Assembly (NCBI GenBank): GCA_036925085.1
Contig: JAUPFP010000001.1
Coordinates: 4,535,001 to 4,599,000, forward strand
Length of the DNA stretch: 64,000 bases
Direction of reading: 5' to 3'
From: Brachycybe producta
Taxonomy: Eukaryota; Arthropoda; Diplopoda; Playtdesmida; Andrognathidae
The translations under genes were made by a program, and so were the position numbers. Shown one piece after another: positions 2,418 to 63,065 of this stretch (position 1 is its first letter; each line of letters opens with the position of its first letter). The notes below the pieces were generated by a model. That model saw nothing but the letters and a program-made list of their open reading frames with translations, ran no database searches and was not told where the DNA came from.

Positions 2418-3170
2418 ACATCAGTCAACACAATGGAATTTTACCAATATATAAATAGAAAAATTATAGCCTCTCACGAGGAAGAGGAGGAGGAGGCTAG
2501 AAATAAATTAAATGTAGGGTGAAATAATTCAAAATATGGAAATGAAGGATAACAATGGAATACAATTTGTGATTATTATTCTACTTTTCAAAATAAAACA
2601 TTAAACAGGAAGATTGGAAGTGTTTTAAAAACTAGAAAAGTAAAGAAATCACTTAAAGACATTTTCTTTTAAAATAAACTTTCTTTTGGCAATTTGAAAA
2701 TAATGCCTTAAAAAAGTTCTCTAGAAACTAGAAGAGTAAATCACGAATTCTGCTCAGGAGCAAAATTAAGAAAAAAACTAGAAAGTGATTTAGAGACTAG
2801 AAGGGTAGCTTTTAATCACAATGAAATTTTACCAACACGTAAATAGGAAAATAGCCTCTTAGGAGGAGGCTATGAATAAATTAAATGTAGGGTGGAAAAA
2901 TTCAAAATATGCAAATTAAAGATAACAATGGAATAAAATTGTTTTAAAAACTAGAAAAGTAAAGAAATCCCTTAAAGTCATTTTCATTTAAAATAAACTT
3001 TCTATGACAATTTGAAGAAAAAAAAATGTTCGCTAGAAACTAGAAGTGTAAATAACCTAGGATGGTTTATGAACAGATGATTTTTCAATTCTGATTATTC
3101 TGTCTTTCAGGAGCAACATTTTTTTTTTCAGGAGAAACGAGAAAGTGTTTTAAAGACTAGAAGGGTAGCT
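2418..3170. repeat. Composite FB-A-related unit, two tandem copies
   Basis: A ~390 bp unit starts at about 2429 and again at about 2818. Each copy holds an 'aattttaccaa' block, a tagcctct hairpin with a GGAGGAGG stretch, a 'taaattaaatgtagggtg' block, and several gaaactagaag signatures in alternating variants (gaaaag, gaagag, gaaggg). A third copy is at 41.3-42.0 kb, so the composite moves or duplicates as a block. Confidence 0.75.
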
Positions 3171-3385
3171 TTTAATCAGTTAAAGATATTTTCAGGTTGA
3201 TATCTTTCAAAATATACTTTGAATAAACATAAATTCAAACAAATTGTTTGCTTAAACTCAAATAAAAAGATAATTTTGAAAGATATAAAACATGAAAATA
3301 TTCTGAAGTGATTGCGCTACCTTTCTAGTTTATAAACCACATTCAAGTTTCTCTTCATTTAGCATCTGAAAAACAGAATTTGAAA
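3125..3385. repeat. FB-A foldback, near-complete
   Basis: The left arm has actagaagggtagct and gttgatatctttcaaaata. The right arm has ttttgaaagatat, catgaaaatattc and ctttctagttt in reverse order, then cattcaagtttctcttca. The two arms are inverted copies around a short AT centre. Confidence 0.75.
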
Positions 3386-3670
3386 ATGTTTTAAAAACTA
3401 GAAAAGTAAAGGAATCACTTTATGATGACATAAAAAAATAAACTTTTTATGGCAATTTGAAATTCTCTTATTTGAAAAAAAAAGTATTCTAGAAACTAGA
3501 AGAGTAAATGAAATCACTTAAAAAGAATTTTCATGTTGATAATTTTTTTTCTTCAAAATTATCGATTTTCATTTTTTTCCTTTCAAGTTGGGTCAAAAAT
3601 CAATAATTTTGAAGTTGATTTTTAAAAGTATGAACTTGAAAATTACACTTCTAGTTACTAAAAAAAAGGC
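3386..3670. repeat. FB-A variant arms
   Basis: Two further signatures (aaaaactagaaaagtaaag at about 3396 and gaaactagaagagtaaatg at about 3491) are followed by degenerate inner-arm sequence including atgttgata and its inverted partner around 3545-3650. Confidence 0.6.
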
Positions 3671-6214: not shown

Positions 6215-7140
6215 CAAGTCTTTTAGGAGAAAAATCAAGAAAAACTTGAAGGTGTTTTAGAAACTAGAAGGGTAGCTCAATTTCCTTAAGAGGCTACATC
6301 GCAAAATTACTTCGAAAATTCTCCGCAAAGAGCGCTAGCATCGTTTTTCTATTGAACCTATAGACCCGATGTTAAAGAAAAACCGTTAGTTTTTAAAATA
6401 ACACAGTCGCGGCGGCAATATGTTTATTTTTCATATTTAAAGTTGTTCAATTTTGCTGGTTCAAAGTTCAATGTGCACCTTAAATATATGCTGATCTAGT
6501 GATAGAATGACAAAAAATTGGTAAGTGCGGTTCTATTTTTAAAAGCTATTTCAAAATCGCGAATTTCTAACTCTTATGTTAAACTCCATAGAGTACGCCC
6601 AAATAAGAAAAAAATATCCATATTTTAATGGTAAAAATACGTAAAAATAATTTTAAAAAACCGGAAACAAATCAGCACGTGCGCCAATGTGTTGGCTTCA
6701 CTGTGGTTTAATTGTGGTTTTCTAAAATTATTTTTTAGGGATTTTTGCGAGCATTTTAATGGATGTTTTTTTTTCTTACGAGCGCGTACTCAGTGGAGTT
6801 TAACATAAAAGTTAGAGATTCGCGATTTTGAAATAGTTTTTAAAAATAGAACCGCACTTACCAATTTTTTGTCATTCTATCACTCGATCAGCATATATTT
6901 AAGGTGCGCATTGCACTTTGAACCATCAAATGTGGACAACTTTAAATATGAAAAATAAACATATTGCCGCCGCGACTGTGTATTTTAAAAATTAACGTTT
7001 TTTTCTGGGTCTATGGGCTCAATAGAAAAACGATGCTAGCGCTCTTTGCGGAGATTTATAGAAGTAATTTTGTGATGTAGCCTCTTAAGTGATTTGAGCT
7101 GAAACTTCTAATTTATAACAAACTTTCAATTTATTTTTAG
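6215..7140. repeat. Complete FB-B palindrome bounded by FB-A ends
   Basis: The outer ~60 bp on each side are FB-A (gtgttttagaaactagaagg on the left, aagtgatttgagctgaaact on the right). Inside, two ~370 bp arms are inverted copies: gctagcatcg, cccgatgttaaag, gcggcggcaatatg, gcgaatttctaac on the left and their complements on the right. The non-palindromic centre holds gcacgtgcgccaatgtg and ttggcttcactgtgg and is conserved in the 15 kb copy. No transposase frame. Confidence 0.85.
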
Positions 7141-8102: not shown

Positions 8103-8389
8103 CTAATCTGTTTTAATTTGTTTGTCGTTGTGTTGGTGTTGCGAAGAAGAGGAGGAGGAGGAAGTGGACACATTTGTTTGTTCGTTATTAACGGCCACTT
8201 CAACAGCTTTTGACTCTTTTGCCGCCTTGCGCCTCACTTGCACGTATACGACCAATCGGCAAGTGAGCATGAAAGTGAATACTATGGACGGCGCCATTCT
8301 TTCGAACCGATCTCCTATGGCCTGATGAGTGTAAACGGCTCCGATCATGAGAACCAAGAGCACCACATTGGCCACCTCCTTTATGCAAC
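8103..8389 (-). CDS. TMEM35A: TMEM35A-like terminal coding exon
   Basis: The acceptor is tttgcag (AG at 8391-8390) and the phase-1 codon completes as GGT (Gly83). The exon carries membrane segments three and four, a basic stop-transfer VRRK, a polar tail with a serine run coded by imperfect AGC/TCC-type triplets, and a TAG stop at 8105-8103. No canonical AATAAA lies close behind. The first one on this strand is at 7330-7325, about 770 bases after the stop, so a long 3' UTR or a variant signal is implied. Confidence 0.88.
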
Positions 8390-10277
8390 CTGCAAACAAA
8401 TAAAAAAAAATAACAACCCCATGGTAAAATTTTCTGATTGTTTGTCAGGAGCATCATATTGAACCACTGAATCAAATAAAAAATATTGCATGTCTTTATC
8501 TCATTCCATTCTTGAGTTGTTCGACCCACAAAATCGGGGTTCCGGACACAGACACACACACATCGTTTTTTTTGCCCCTTTTCTTGCATGATCCTATATA
8601 CTTCCATTGCTCTAAAGAGCAATGGAGGTCAAAAAGAGTCCACCACAGGACCACATTATGTACGAAAATGCCCATATTGTGCCAGTGCAGAGCCATAACT
8701 AGGTCATTATTGCCCTCGTTATGGCTCTGTGCCGGTCTCGTATTGTGACATACCTGGCACGAAGACTAGAATCAGTCCACAGACAGCTTCAGTAATTCCT
8801 ACCGTTCTACGGTACCATTTCGAGGACACCTTGAAACCGAGGTTCTGAGCCAATGGAAATACTTTCGCATATTGGACAAAAGATTTTCTCTGCAACAAAA
8901 TAATTAGTTAATTAATCAGTTAATAGTTCTGTCATCAGCACGATTATTAAACAAAATTTTTGCAAAATTAAAAATTCGGTAGCTAAATTAAACACATTTA
9001 CTTGGCATTTTTTATAGCATTTTTGGCAGCCATTTGCAAAATACCCTTTCACCTTAATTTGCATATATGAAAATTAAGAAGAAAAAACTGGAGCAATATT
9101 TAACCTAAGAAGTTGAAATTGTTTTCGAAACTAGAAGAGTAAATGAAAACATTTAACAGTATTTTCATCTTCATATTATATTTTAAAATAAACTTTTTAT
9201 TATTTTTTAAAATTCACCAACAAAAAACCATTTAGTGAATAAATTACTCTTCTAGTTATTAAACCTCTTTTTAAGTTTTTCTTAAGGTAATTCCAAATTA
9301 CCTAAGAAGTTAAAATTGTTTTCGAAACTAGAAGAGTAAATGAAAACATTTAACAATATTTTCATCTTCATATTATATTTTAAAACAAACTTTTTATTAT
9401 TATTTAAAATTTAGTAAATTTAGTAAATAAATTACTCTTCTAGTATTTAAGTTTTTCTTAAGGTAATTACAAAGTGTAAATTTTTCCTAAACTTTAGTTA
9501 ATCTGTATTTCAGGAAGCAAAGTTAAAGAGAAACTAGAAGGGCCGCTAAGAATATTTTCATGTTGATTATCTTTTAAAATACACTTTTTATGTTTTGAAA
9601 ATAACACAACTTTATAAGCAGAAAATATTGTTTTAATTTTTTTTGTTTATAAAAAGTTTATTTTGAAAGATAACAAACATACAAATAACCTTAAGCGATT
9701 GCGTTACCCTTCTAGTTTTTATAATATTTTCTAGTTTCTCTTAATTCTAGCTCCAGGAGAAGAAAAAAAAAACAGAATAATCAAGAGTTCAATGATTAAA
9801 ATGAGAAAGTTATTTTCAAAATACAAAATAACAAGTTTTTTACATTTTGGCGGGTAAAATATCCATTCTCTCACTAGAGGTCGCTACTTTTAGATCAAAA
9901 TTCATTTCATTCATTGATTTTTTATGGGACCACGTGTCCTTCTCCACTCCCCTCCCACATCCTCCTCCTCCATTTTTGTTTCATTTTGTAAATTAAATCT
10001 TAAGAATTTCGTCAATTTTTCATTCGCAAATTTCAATATAATGAAGAATTTGAAAAATTAAAAATGGCGGAAAAATTAAACACAAATGTCTTAATATTTA
10101 GGGCCTAATATTCAGCCCTAATATTTCCTTTTTTTTTCTCTCTAAAAATTACCAAATTTTACTTACTAGGTCCTTGTGCATATCATGATTCAATTTGTTA
10201 GTCACCTTCATGATTCCAACAAATATAAAGAATAAACCTAATAAGACTGATAATGTTTTTAAAACAATAGACGCCAT
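8103..10277 (-). CDS. TMEM35A: TMEM35A/NACHO-like nicotinic receptor chaperone, three coding exons
   Basis: The spliced minus-strand gene joins 10277-10167, 8889-8754 and 8389-8103 into 177 residues plus TAG (human protein about 167). Both introns are GT-AG, phase 0 then phase 1. TMEM35A/NACHO is a four-pass endoplasmic reticulum protein that helps nicotinic acetylcholine receptors such as alpha7 fold and assemble. Seen here: an N-terminal hydrophobic segment (about residues 4-25) with GLFFIFVGIMK, a middle segment (about 66-82) ending in VFVPG, then KEVANVVLLVL (86-96), HQAIGD (104-109) and the fourth segment with LTCRLV (124-129). I recall the human protein having GLFFVFMGTIK, LVPG, KDVANF, HQLVGD and LTCRLL at the same places. 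The tail (138-177) is polar, with a seven-serine run and QHQH, and is probably lineage-specific. The start has a good Kozak context (aacaaaATGG). Intron 1 is 1277 bp and full of foldback repeats. The paralogue TMEM35B is the main alternative. Confidence 0.9.
8604..8729. repeat. Two short hairpins inside intron 2
   Basis: 8604-8613 pairs perfectly with 8616-8625 (ccattgctct, 2-base loop). 8688-8699 pairs perfectly with 8718-8729 (cagagccataac, 18-base loop). Both lie inside the short second intron of the TMEM35A-like gene, in sequence richer in G+C than its neighbours. They may be a small foldback insertion; I see no coding meaning. Confidence 0.6.
8754..8889 (-). CDS. TMEM35A: TMEM35A-like exon 2
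   Basis: The acceptor is ttgcag just upstream of 8889 and the donor is gtatgt from 8753. The 136 bases encode 45 codons plus one base, from RKSFVQYAKVFPLA to LILVFVP. It contains the cytosolic loop (KSFVQY matches KSYVRA of the human protein) and the second membrane segment. It is too short and unmarked to show up as a long open frame and is recognised by family similarity and splice sites. Confidence 0.88.
9085..9480. repeat. FB-A short variant, tandem pair, in TMEM35A intron 1
   Basis: Two near-identical ~200 bp units each start aagttgaaattgttttcg or aagttaaaattgttttcg, followed by aaactagaagagtaaatg, and end with the inverted tactcttctagt. They differ by few bases, indicating a recent duplication inside the intron. 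Confidence 0.7.
9515..9790. repeat. FB-A foldback in TMEM35A intron 1
   Basis: Left arm has gagaaactagaaggg and catgttgattatcttttaaaata. Right arm has gtttattttgaaagataac and gttacccttctagttttt and ends near gctccaggagaag. The intron RNA of this copy could fold into a long hairpin. Confidence 0.7.
9871..9886 (+). promoter_or_regulatory. CTCF-like motif in intron 1
   Basis: TCACTAGAGGTCGCTA resembles the CTCF core with one weak position (T for G in the GGG). It lies in intron 1 of the TMEM35A-like gene. Confidence 0.25.
10167..10277 (-). CDS. TMEM35A: TMEM35A-like exon 1 (coding part)
   Basis: This exon encodes 37 codons, MASIVLKT through MHKDL, and ends at the donor gtaagt (10166-10161), so the intron is phase 0. 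The hydrophobic stretch that starts right after the initiator fits the first membrane segment or signal anchor of the family. The MAS start and the GLFF-FxG pattern agree with vertebrate TMEM35A as I remember it. The 5' UTR boundary cannot be set from sequence alone. Confidence 0.88.
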
Positions 10278-14984: not shown

Positions 14985-15715
14985 GAAAAATAGATGCTAC
15001 ACATTTTAAAATACACAGTCGGTGGCAATATGTTTATTTTTCATACTTAAAGTTGTCCAGTTTTGATCGTTTAAAGTGCAATGTGCACCTTAAATATATG
15101 TTCATCTAGCGATAGAACGACAAAAAATTGGTAAGTGCTCTTCTATTTTTAAAAAAAATATTTCAAAATCGCGAATTTCTAACTTAGGTCTATGTTAAAC
15201 TCCATTGATTACTAGCTCGTTAGCAAAAAAAAAAAATCCATTAAAATGTTTCTAAAAATACGTTAAAATAATTTTAAAAAAACAGAAAAAAGTCAGCACG
15301 TGCGCCAATGTGTTGGCTTCACTGTGGTTTACTTGTGGTTTTTTAAAAAATATTTCTAGGTATTTTTACAAACATTTTAATCGATGTTTTTTCTTACTTA
15401 GGCGTACTCAATGGAGTTTAACATAGAGAGTTAGAAATTCGCGATTTTGAAATAGTTTTTAAAAAATAGAACTGCACTTACTAATTTTTTGTCATTCTAT
15501 CACTAGATGAACATATATTTAAAGATGCACATTGCACTTTGAAAACTTAATATTGGAGAACTTTAAATATGAAAAATAAACATATTGCCGCCACTGACTG
15601 TGTATTTTAAAAATTAACGTTTTTTTCTTTAACATCGGGTCTATGGGCTCAATAGAAAAACGATGCTAGCGCTCTTTGTGGAGATTTTTCAAAGTAATTT
15701 TGCGATGTAGCCTCT
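14985..15715. repeat. FB-B palindrome, left tip deleted
   Basis: Both arms are present from the ggcggcaatatg-like block inward (left ~15015, right ~15597). The left arm lacks the outer gctagcatcg and cccgatgttaaag blocks, which are intact on the right. The centre gcacgtgcgccaatgtg, ttggcttcactgtgg matches the 6.3 kb copy. The right end ttttgcgatgtagcctctta again meets FB-A-like tip sequence. Confidence 0.8.
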
Positions 15716-22129: not shown

Positions 22130-22640
22130 AAAAAAGGGGCCTGGCTCACTACAGCTACCAGGCTCACTACAGCTGCCAGGGTCACTACCTGAGCTACCAA
22201 AAAAATAGATAGACCTTTTTTTTTCATCAAAAGGGTCATTACAGCTACCAAAAAATATAGTCCTGTTTTATCAATACGTTTAGTTTAGGTTAGATTCGGT
22301 TCAGTTAGGTTTCATTAGACTTGGTTAGGTTAGCTTCCGTAAGGATCAGTTAGGTTCGGTTAGGTTCGGTAAGGATAGGTTAGGTTCGGTTAGGTTCGGT
22401 TAGGTTAGGTTTGGTAAGGTTCGGTTAGGTTCAGTTAGGTTTGGTAAGGTTCGGTTAGGTTTCATTAATTAGGTTAGGTTAGGGAGAAAGGGTTATATTT
22501 TTTGGTAGCTGTAGTTATGAGAAAGTGATGAAAAAATGTCTATATTTTGTTCCTATATTTTTTGGTAGTTGTAGTGACCCAATTAGCTGTTCTCCCCCTA
22601 GTAACTGTAGTGACCCCCAACCTATTAACCAAAAAAGTTC
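22130..22640. repeat. Inverted GTAGCTGTAGTGAC words around a TTAGGT-rich core
   Basis: Left side (22141-22255) has four copies of tcactacagct-acca. Right side (22495-22612) has three copies of the complement. Between them, 22275-22490 is a degenerate array of ggttcggttaggttaggt, built from 5-6 base TTAGG/TTCGG units. It resembles telomere-like repeats but is irregular. Confidence 0.7.
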
Positions 22641-57293: not shown

Positions 57294-57915
57294 GCCACTT
57301 TACAAAAAAATGTGTTGGTATTTTACCAAAATGCGTGTGGCCACTTTACCAAAATATGTGGCCACTTTACTAAAATGTGTGGCCACTTTACCAAAACATG
57401 TGGCTACTTTACCAAAGTGCGTGGCCACTTTACCAAAACATGCGGCTACTTTACCAAAGTGTGTGGCCACCTTACCAAAACATGTGGCCACTTTATCAAA
57501 ACATGTGGCCACTTTACCAAAACATGTGGCCACTTTACCAAAATGTGTGGCCCCCTTACCAAAACATGTGGCCTTTATAACAAAATGCGTAGCCACTTTA
57601 CTAAAATGCTTGGCCACTTTACCAAAATGTGTGGCCACCTTACCAAAACATGTTGCCACTTTATCAAAACATGTGGCCACTTTACTAAAATGCTTGGCCT
57701 CTTTATCAAGATGTGCAGCCACTGTACCAAAACATGTGGCCACTTTACCAAAATGCGTGGCCACTTTACCAAAATGTGTGGTCACTTTACCAAAACATGT
57801 GGCTTTTTTTACAAAAATGCATAGCCACTTTATCAAAACATGTGGCTACTTTAACAAAGGTTGTGGGCAACTTTATGGAAATATGTGGCGACTTTAACAA
57901 AGTATGGAGCCACTT
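57294..57915. repeat. 21 bp minisatellite open in five frames
   Basis: About 29 units of gtggccactttaccaaaaca. The unit length is a multiple of three and few stops occur, so long frames appear on both strands: 201 codons plus (57292-57897, unit VATLPKH), 170 plus, 178 minus (57836-57300, unit CFGKVAT), and two shorter ones. Units vary mainly at gcg/tgt/cat positions. Simultaneous openness argues for a repeat rather than a gene. Confidence 0.9.
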
Positions 57916-58660
57916 TAGAAAAATTATTGTAAAACTATAAATCTGTTTCGAGAGTTCAAGTGTAAGTTTCCTTTTTAAATTTGGACCTTATCTTAACATC
58001 CTCAAGGTGCGTTTTCATGCGCGCTGTGTTTTTTAGTATTGTGCGCTTGTGAAGGTTGGGTGTGATCATCGATCACGTGACCACCACTTAAAGCTTCACA
58101 GCTGCAGAAATCCTATTGGTTGAAAATAGACGTGACACACAAGTGTACAAACACAGCATTAACATGTGGCAAAGTCAGAAACTTGTGTGCCCATTTGCGG
58201 CGCACAGCTGAAACCAGATTGCTAGTGGCGCGCGTTTATATTTGTAGAGAATCCAAGGCGCCGTGAGATTTCGGGTTCCCATCAATTGTGTTTTTTTTGC
58301 TTGATTAATAGTCGAAAAAATTAATTTGACGCCTCTTTAAATGACTTCAATGTCTTCAAAAAATATATGTCTACTTGACTAAAGTTTTGGCAATGGGCGC
58401 CTCTAAAAATCGCGCGCCTAGTATGCCTAGATTTTACGCTTTGTTTTGCACACAGCTCAGAGTTCATTATAGCTCGAATTTTGAAGCTCAAAAGTGAGCA
58501 TGAAAATCCACCTTTAGACACACACACACACACACAAAAGGTTATACTTCTATAGTGAAAATGGTTGGGTGTCCGTCACTCGTCACCTATGTAATTTAGC
58601 TGCGCGCCTTTGTGCTTTGTGAGCCATTGTTATGAGAAAAAAAAAAGTCTATATAATACA
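57916..58660. promoter_or_regulatory. CpG-rich patch, possible promoter region
   Basis: CpG words are frequent here compared with the rest (gcgcgctgtg, ggcggcgcac-like, ggcgcgcgttt, aaggcgccgtg, aatcgcgcgcctag). There is a CACGTG E-box (gatcacgtgaccacc, 58070-58084) and an inverted CCAAT word (cctattggttg, 58112-58122). No open frame follows convincingly, so any gene would have its coding exons elsewhere. Confidence 0.3.
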
Positions 58661-61224: not shown

Positions 61225-63065
61225 TTTCAAACTCTGAACATTCTTCGTTTCAGAAGAGCAACAACAGCAAGCAAAGATTAAAAGTTTGTTAGAAATTAGA
61301 ACGGGTATAACTGAATCATAGTATTTTCATGTTGATATCTTTCAAAATAAACCTTTTTAAAGGGCCTAGACAAAATTAAGAGGGAAAAAATATCATCTGC
61401 TTAAAGTTGGGTCATTTTCAAACTCACAAAAAAAAGTTTATTTTGTAAGTAACAACAAGAAAATACTATTAAGTGATTGAGCTACTCTTCTAGTTTTTAA
61501 AAGTCATTTAAATTTTGCTCTTCTCAAAGGCACAATAATTAATTAGACTTTGACGGCCGTTTAAGACTTTAAAAAATACCCTAAATGATTCTGTTTTTCA
61601 GAAAGAGCAAAAAATTAAGAGAAACTGGAAAAGTGTTTTAGAATCAGAGTATATTTTAAAGTTTAATAAAGTTTAAAATAAACTTTTTACAGACAAAAAT
61701 TTAAAAAAATGTAGTCTGCTTAAAGTTGGGTCTTTTTCAAACTCATAAAAACGCTTATTTTGAAAGATAGCAACATGAAGAAATATCCTTAAGTACTTGA
61801 GCAACCCTTCTAGTTTCTAAAAAAAAAAACATTCAAGACTCTCTTCATTTCGCACTTTTAACTATAAAATAATTAAGAGTTCGAGAGGCGTTTACACCTT
61901 AAAATCACCTTAAGTGATTGATTTACTCTTCTAGTTTCTTACACACTTAATTTATTTTTTATAAAAAAAAATGCAAAAAAAACTAGAAAGAAATTCAAAA
62001 TGTGTTAGAAGCTAGAACGGTCGCTTAATCACTTAATAGTATTTTCATGTTGATATATTTCAAAATAAACTTTTTACAGACAAAAAGTTTAAAAAAAATA
62101 TCGTCTGTTTAAATTTGGGTCATTTTCAAACTGACGATAAAAAGCTTATTTTGAACGATAACACAAAATAAAAATAGCCTTAAGTGATTGATCTACCCTT
62201 CTAGTTTCTAGAACACATTCAAGTTTCTCTTAATTCCGTATCTGAAAGACAGAATTAATCAAGATTTCAACAAGCCCCCCCCCCCGTTTACACTTCATAA
62301 AAAAACATCTTAAGTGATTGATTTTACTCGTCTAGTTTCTAAAACACTTAATTTCTTTTTTTATAAAATCTGCTTTTAAAACGAAAAATAATCAAAACTC
62401 GAGAGTAATGCAAAACGTGTTAGAAACTAGAATGGTCAATAATATTTTTCTGTTGATATATTTCAAAATAAACTTTTTATAGAAACAAAAATTTAAAAAA
62501 AAGTGTCATTTTCAAATTCACATAAAAAAAGCTTATTTTAAAAGATATCAATATTCAAAATAGCCTTATGTGGTTGATCTACCCTTCTAGTTTCTAAAAC
62601 AGATTCAAGTTTCTCAAGAATAATTAATTCCGTATCTGAAAGACTAAGAATAATCACGATTTCAAGAGGCCCTGTTTACACTTTATAAAAACACCTTAAG
62701 TGATTGATTTTACTCGTCTAGTTTCTAAAACACTTCTTTTTTATATAAAATCTGCTTCTAAAACGAAAAATAATCAAAACTCGAGAGAAGGTGCTAGAAA
62801 CTAGAATGGTCAATAATATTTTTCTGTTGATATATTTCAAAATAAACTTTTTATATAAACAAGAATTAAAAAAAAAAAGTTGTGTCATTTTCAAATTCAC
62901 ATAAAAAGCTTATTTTAAAAGATATCAACATGAAAAATAGCCTAAAGTGACTCAGCTACCCTTCTAGTTTCTAAAACACTTTCAAGTTTATCTAAATTTT
63001 GTATCTGAAAGACAGAATAATAAAGAGTTCGCGAGGCCCCGTTCACACTTGAAAAAAAAAAAACA
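61225..63065. repeat. FB-A cluster, five tandem foldbacks
   Basis: Successive units start near 61290, 61625, 61990, 62410 and 62790, each with tagaaactagaa-type words, atgttgatat(c/a)tttcaaaa, ctttttacagac or ctttttatag, the inverted agcttattttgaaag, and acccttctagtttctaaaac. Between units the outer tails (gagttcgagaggcgtttaca, accttaagtgattga) are followed by a partial arm (actcgtctagtttctaaaac). Units four and five are nearly identical, showing recent amplification. Confidence 0.85.

Follow-up and report, generated by a model that had tools for sequence, protein, structure and literature searches.

TMEM35A, the gene for NACHO, was recovered from a screen of 3880 genes whose products reside in the endoplasmic reticulum (ER) and is reported to raise nicotinic receptors including alpha7, whereas 5HT3 and GluA1 are not raised (PMC9318448). 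The human protein is reported to have 167 residues (PMC8263253). In an assembly model put forward as a proposal, NACHO holds the plus side of the alpha subunit and is later displaced (PMC12068001); the binding model comes from a preprint needing replication (PMC12568589). Cited proteomics speaks against direct binding, in that the associates of NACHO included OST subunits and calnexin but not alpha7 (PMC9318448).

Insect members of the family have also been studied. The fly gene CG13920, whose human orthologue is given as TMEM35A, stood out in a climbing test among six significant outliers (PMC10409296). Its product, DmNACHO, is reported to aid human alpha7, and to lower the apparent affinity of BtRDL for GABA, for which the authors suggest a possible disruption of assembly (PMC8263253). 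The honeybee alpha6 receptor is cited as functional with NACHO (PMC12721288; the alpha6 statement is also made in PMC13409772), and a tick alpha6 receptor is described as functional without added chaperones (PMC12721288). Cockroach workers had begun cloning NACHO, and insect nicotinic receptors are named among insecticide targets (PMC7221154). Such receptors are hard to express in the laboratory, and NACHO is among the helpers used, so it is useful to have the gene correctly modelled in one more invertebrate; general understanding stays as it was.

The locus described here lies in a window of 64,000 nucleotides, bases 4,535,001-4,599,000 of a 22.2-Mb contig (C1), in a genome of 295 Mb and 442 contigs. 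It is very probably an intact, single-copy NACHO gene of the TMEM35A type from an invertebrate, probably an arthropod, whose product would be a four-pass, ER-located helper of receptor assembly. The gene adds a member to a known and functionally studied family, and the surprise that the preliminary description implied is not warranted, insect NACHO being already known and expressed in the fly and honeybee reports.

Gene structure

Three minus-strand exons (positions are those of the window) join into 534 nt including the TAG stop and translate into 177 residues without an internal stop. The coding part of exon 1 (10277-10167, 111 nt) runs from the ATG to a phase-0 donor and encodes residues 1-37, with the first hydrophobic segment and its GLFF-F-G motif. 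Exon 2 (8889-8754, 136 nt) encodes residues 38-82, contributes the opening base of codon 83 (Gly in the VPG motif) and ends in phase 1. Exon 3 (8389-8103, 287 nt of coding sequence with the TAG) carries the C-terminal tail as well as KEVAN, HQAIGD and LTCRL. The ends of both introns are canonical: intron 1 (10166-8890, 1277 nt, GTAAGT...GCAG) has the junctions CCTA/GTAAGT ... TTTTGTTGCAG/AGAA and the intron end TTGTTGCAG, and intron 2 (8753-8390, 364 nt, GTATGT...GCAG) has CCAG/GTATGT ... TTTGTTTGCAG/GTTG and the intron end TTTGCAG. An in-frame TGA stands at 10307-10305, 30 nt upstream of the ATG, with no ATG between, so, barring an intron in the 5' part, the ATG at 10277 comes first in its frame.

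Splice models were enumerated from this fixed ATG to the end of the region at 8103. Each had one or two introns, with donors drawn from a set of seven hexamers (6 sites) and acceptors of the pyrimidine-rich YAG type (15 sites). Within that scope, the three-exon model of 177 residues is the longest of 442. None of the 441 alternatives exceeds it in length; the runner-up, of 162 residues, uses an acceptor at 8844 and would lose 15 residues from the start of exon 2, a stretch covered by the alignment to the PDB NACHO chain. The exon coordinates, the GT-AG joining, the start and the stop given in the preliminary description all hold, with both introns as in the best of the enumerated models. Base composition is mixed in its bearing: third-position GC of the coding sequence is 47.8%, against 24.7% GC in intron 1, and the 40.1% GC of intron 2 is close to the coding-sequence level, which counts against the gene model.

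It had also been claimed that exons 1 and 2 are too short for lists of long frames, and their stop-to-stop frames indeed measure 51 and 62 residues. The frame of exon 3 (113 residues stop to stop) is the only one listed, appearing at a 65-residue cut-off and missing at 120. Such escape from long-ORF tracking is common for short-exon genes, and the reading of this gene from raw sequence succeeded cleanly.

Homology and copy number

When the joined protein was compared with all PDB chain sequences, a single match reached E<=1, with E=1.6e-29: chain 9h9e_B, named 'Novel acetylcholine receptor chaperone'. The PDB search gave no organism, and we take the chain to be human NACHO. Residues 4-137 of the window protein align to residues 7-138 of this chain with one two-residue gap, and 47 of the 132 aligned residues are identical (14/34 in exon 1, 12/43 in exon 2 and 21/55 in exon 3). 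The local score against the PDB NACHO fragment is 272; in 1000 shuffles the mean was 28.5 (SD 4.8) and the maximum 49, so the match is not due to chance. An approximately reversed query (178 letters against 177, hence not an exact reversal) gave no PDB match at E<=10. The family likeness noticed at first sight is borne out, as are the five motifs on which it was founded: GLFF-FxG, VPG, K(E/D)VAN, HQ-(I/V)GD and LTCRL are common to the window protein and 9h9e_B in the alignment; GLFF, VPG, VAN, HQ, GD and LTCRL are shared within the aligned core.

The Pfam model DoxX_2 (PF13564) matches residues 8-123 of the joined protein with 43.3 bits (cut-off 26.3); the Pfam models DoxX, MauE and DUF308 stay below their cut-offs on this protein. 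DoxX_2 is a broad superfamily with prokaryotic members, has matches in 4 of 14 control genomes, and does not name a function. In 19-residue windows above 1.0, hydropathy alone gives three blocks, 1-31, 62-111 and 111-136; the second has room for two helices and contains VPG, around which helices 2 and 3 merge. The collinear alignment with NACHO supports a prediction of four transmembrane helices, though hydropathy alone shows three blocks.

Six-frame searches of the organism's own genome, which score best candidates only and in which some stretches read as N, returned one clear locus with either query. With the window protein, the three exons of the NACHO-like gene were found (E=2.7e-15, 2.6e-23 and 3.9e-55 for exons 1, 2 and 3, respectively), and no paralogue rose above noise in the 295 Mb, the next best match having E=7.46; with the PDB fragment the next best was E=9.33. 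The DoxX_2 model gave one match in the genome, exon 3 of the NACHO-like gene, at E=0.04 and below its cut-off. Since this model is weak even on exon 3 of the NACHO-like gene, only best candidates were scored and some stretches read N, a divergent short-exon paralogue could be missed.

Proposed function and alternative readings

By homology with its relatives, the window protein would be expected to reside in the ER and to aid assembly of pentameric ligand-gated channel subunits, nicotinic receptors first and perhaps GABA-gated ones, probably by shielding membrane interfaces of the subunits until it is displaced. A different placement of the gene, on the TMEM35B side or as a pre-duplication co-orthologue of TMEM35A and TMEM35B, with a role other than receptor assembly, is unlikely. 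One clear family member in the genome would fit a pre-duplication gene, and the sequence comparison covered NACHO (9h9e_B) alone, as the sequences searched yielded neither an animal TMEM35B nor a further invertebrate NACHO. The TMEM35B reading has against it the strong match to NACHO itself, the statement in a 2020 paper (PMC7175337) that tmem35b is unrelated and shares little sequence homology with tmem35a, and the naming of TMEM35A as the human counterpart of CG13920 (PMC10409296). Judged on the match to the NACHO sequence, which is strong, a place on the TMEM35A side, or as a co-orthologue, is much the more likely. That the gene is instead a pseudogene, decayed or unexpressed but with its frame still open, is extremely improbable. 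The gene is known here from genomic sequence alone, as such a reading would allow, but its frame is intact over three exons, its splice sites are intact and its motifs conserved; the retained introns mean that it is not a retrocopy, and no other clear copy that could be the working one was found in the genome.

The tail, residues 138-177 (codons at 8225-8106, minus strand), does not align with 9h9e_B. The window protein, with 177 residues, is longer than the reported human protein (167 residues; PMC8263253) and than the insect homologue from Drosophila (CG13920, 160 residues, compared here by its description; PMC8263253). The tail had been called rich in serine and histidine over about 40 residues: the serine part stands, with 9 Ser in 40 and a run of seven, and the histidine part was overstated, with 2 His in 40; Ala, Lys, Val, Asn and Gln occur four times each. 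The seven consecutive serine codons read four TCC, two TCT and one TCG, and a short microsatellite-like run is explanation enough for them. The protein ends K-Q-I-K-T-D, with Lys at -3. In a published review, ER-retention residues of the NACHO C-terminal region are given as KVKVS in vertebrates and KQE in the fly, and predicted structures from five species superpose except in this cytoplasmic region (PMC9318448). The window protein differs from the vertebrate pattern in ending K-T-D after its serine-run tail, and may resemble the fly protein, in which Lys would likewise lie at -3 if KQE are the last three residues. Because known NACHOs differ here, the tail is an expected place for variation, and its difference carries little weight. 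Being of low complexity and cytoplasmic, the tail probably serves as a flexible linker with a putative ER-retrieval lysine at the C-terminus; a lineage-specific regulatory segment, for instance one that is phosphorylated or alters ER retention and so tunes which receptor subtypes are assembled, is very unlikely.

Other features of the window and assembly

Intron 1 holds two 112-nt direct repeats, 9103-9214 and 9300-9411, and within them lies a motif that is common in the window, AAACTAGAAG(A/G)GTA. With up to one mismatch, this motif occurs 28 times on the plus and 22 times on the minus strand of the whole window (raw counts, without a chance expectation), for example at 9103-9411, 2629-3493 and 61483-62957, and within the array at 62111-63060, whose period is 386 bp; it is apparently an abundant dispersed repeat. 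A fold-back repeat at 6274-7100 has inner arms at 6376-6614 and 6768-7006 (239 nt, 89% complementary) and outer arms at 6274-6367 and 7007-7100 (94 nt, 90%). Two short stretches of it, used as probes, are found again near 244-467 and 15170-15649, and it is possibly a non-autonomous fold-back mobile element. The 21-bp tandem repeat at 57294-57924 (29.8 copies) contains open frames of 177-203 residues stop to stop on both strands, which probably do not mark a gene and are an artefact of the repeat period being a multiple of three. Inside the contig, at 22280-22483, lies a degenerate TTAGG-like array with the consensus TTAGGTTAGGTTAGGTTCGG, which resembles the arthropod telomere repeat. Of the window's 99 stop-to-stop frames at a 65-residue cut-off, a Pfam scan covered 10 besides the NACHO-like protein and gave no match above a cut-off and three below one, and two NCBIfam matches were below cut-off; in the window, no Rfam family reached its gathering score and ARAGORN in its bacterial setting found no tRNA.

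Elsewhere in the assembly, contig C442 (15,359 bases) is mitochondrial, its long frames being read with code 5, the invertebrate mitochondrial code; on the strength of this contig we judge the host to be an arthropod. Its tRNAs were named by the mitochondrial mode of ARAGORN and COX1 by profile; the names of the other proteins are provisional and were assigned from their sequences. The gene order is rearranged: trnL2 does not separate COX1 from COX2, which begins immediately after the stop of COX1, and ND4-trnH-ND5-trnF lie on the same strand as COX1. A nearly full-length COX1-like stretch with an in-frame TAA occurs at C1:12697416-12698753, and COX1 fragments occur at C17:4028172-4029047; both are probable nuclear copies of mitochondrial COX1.
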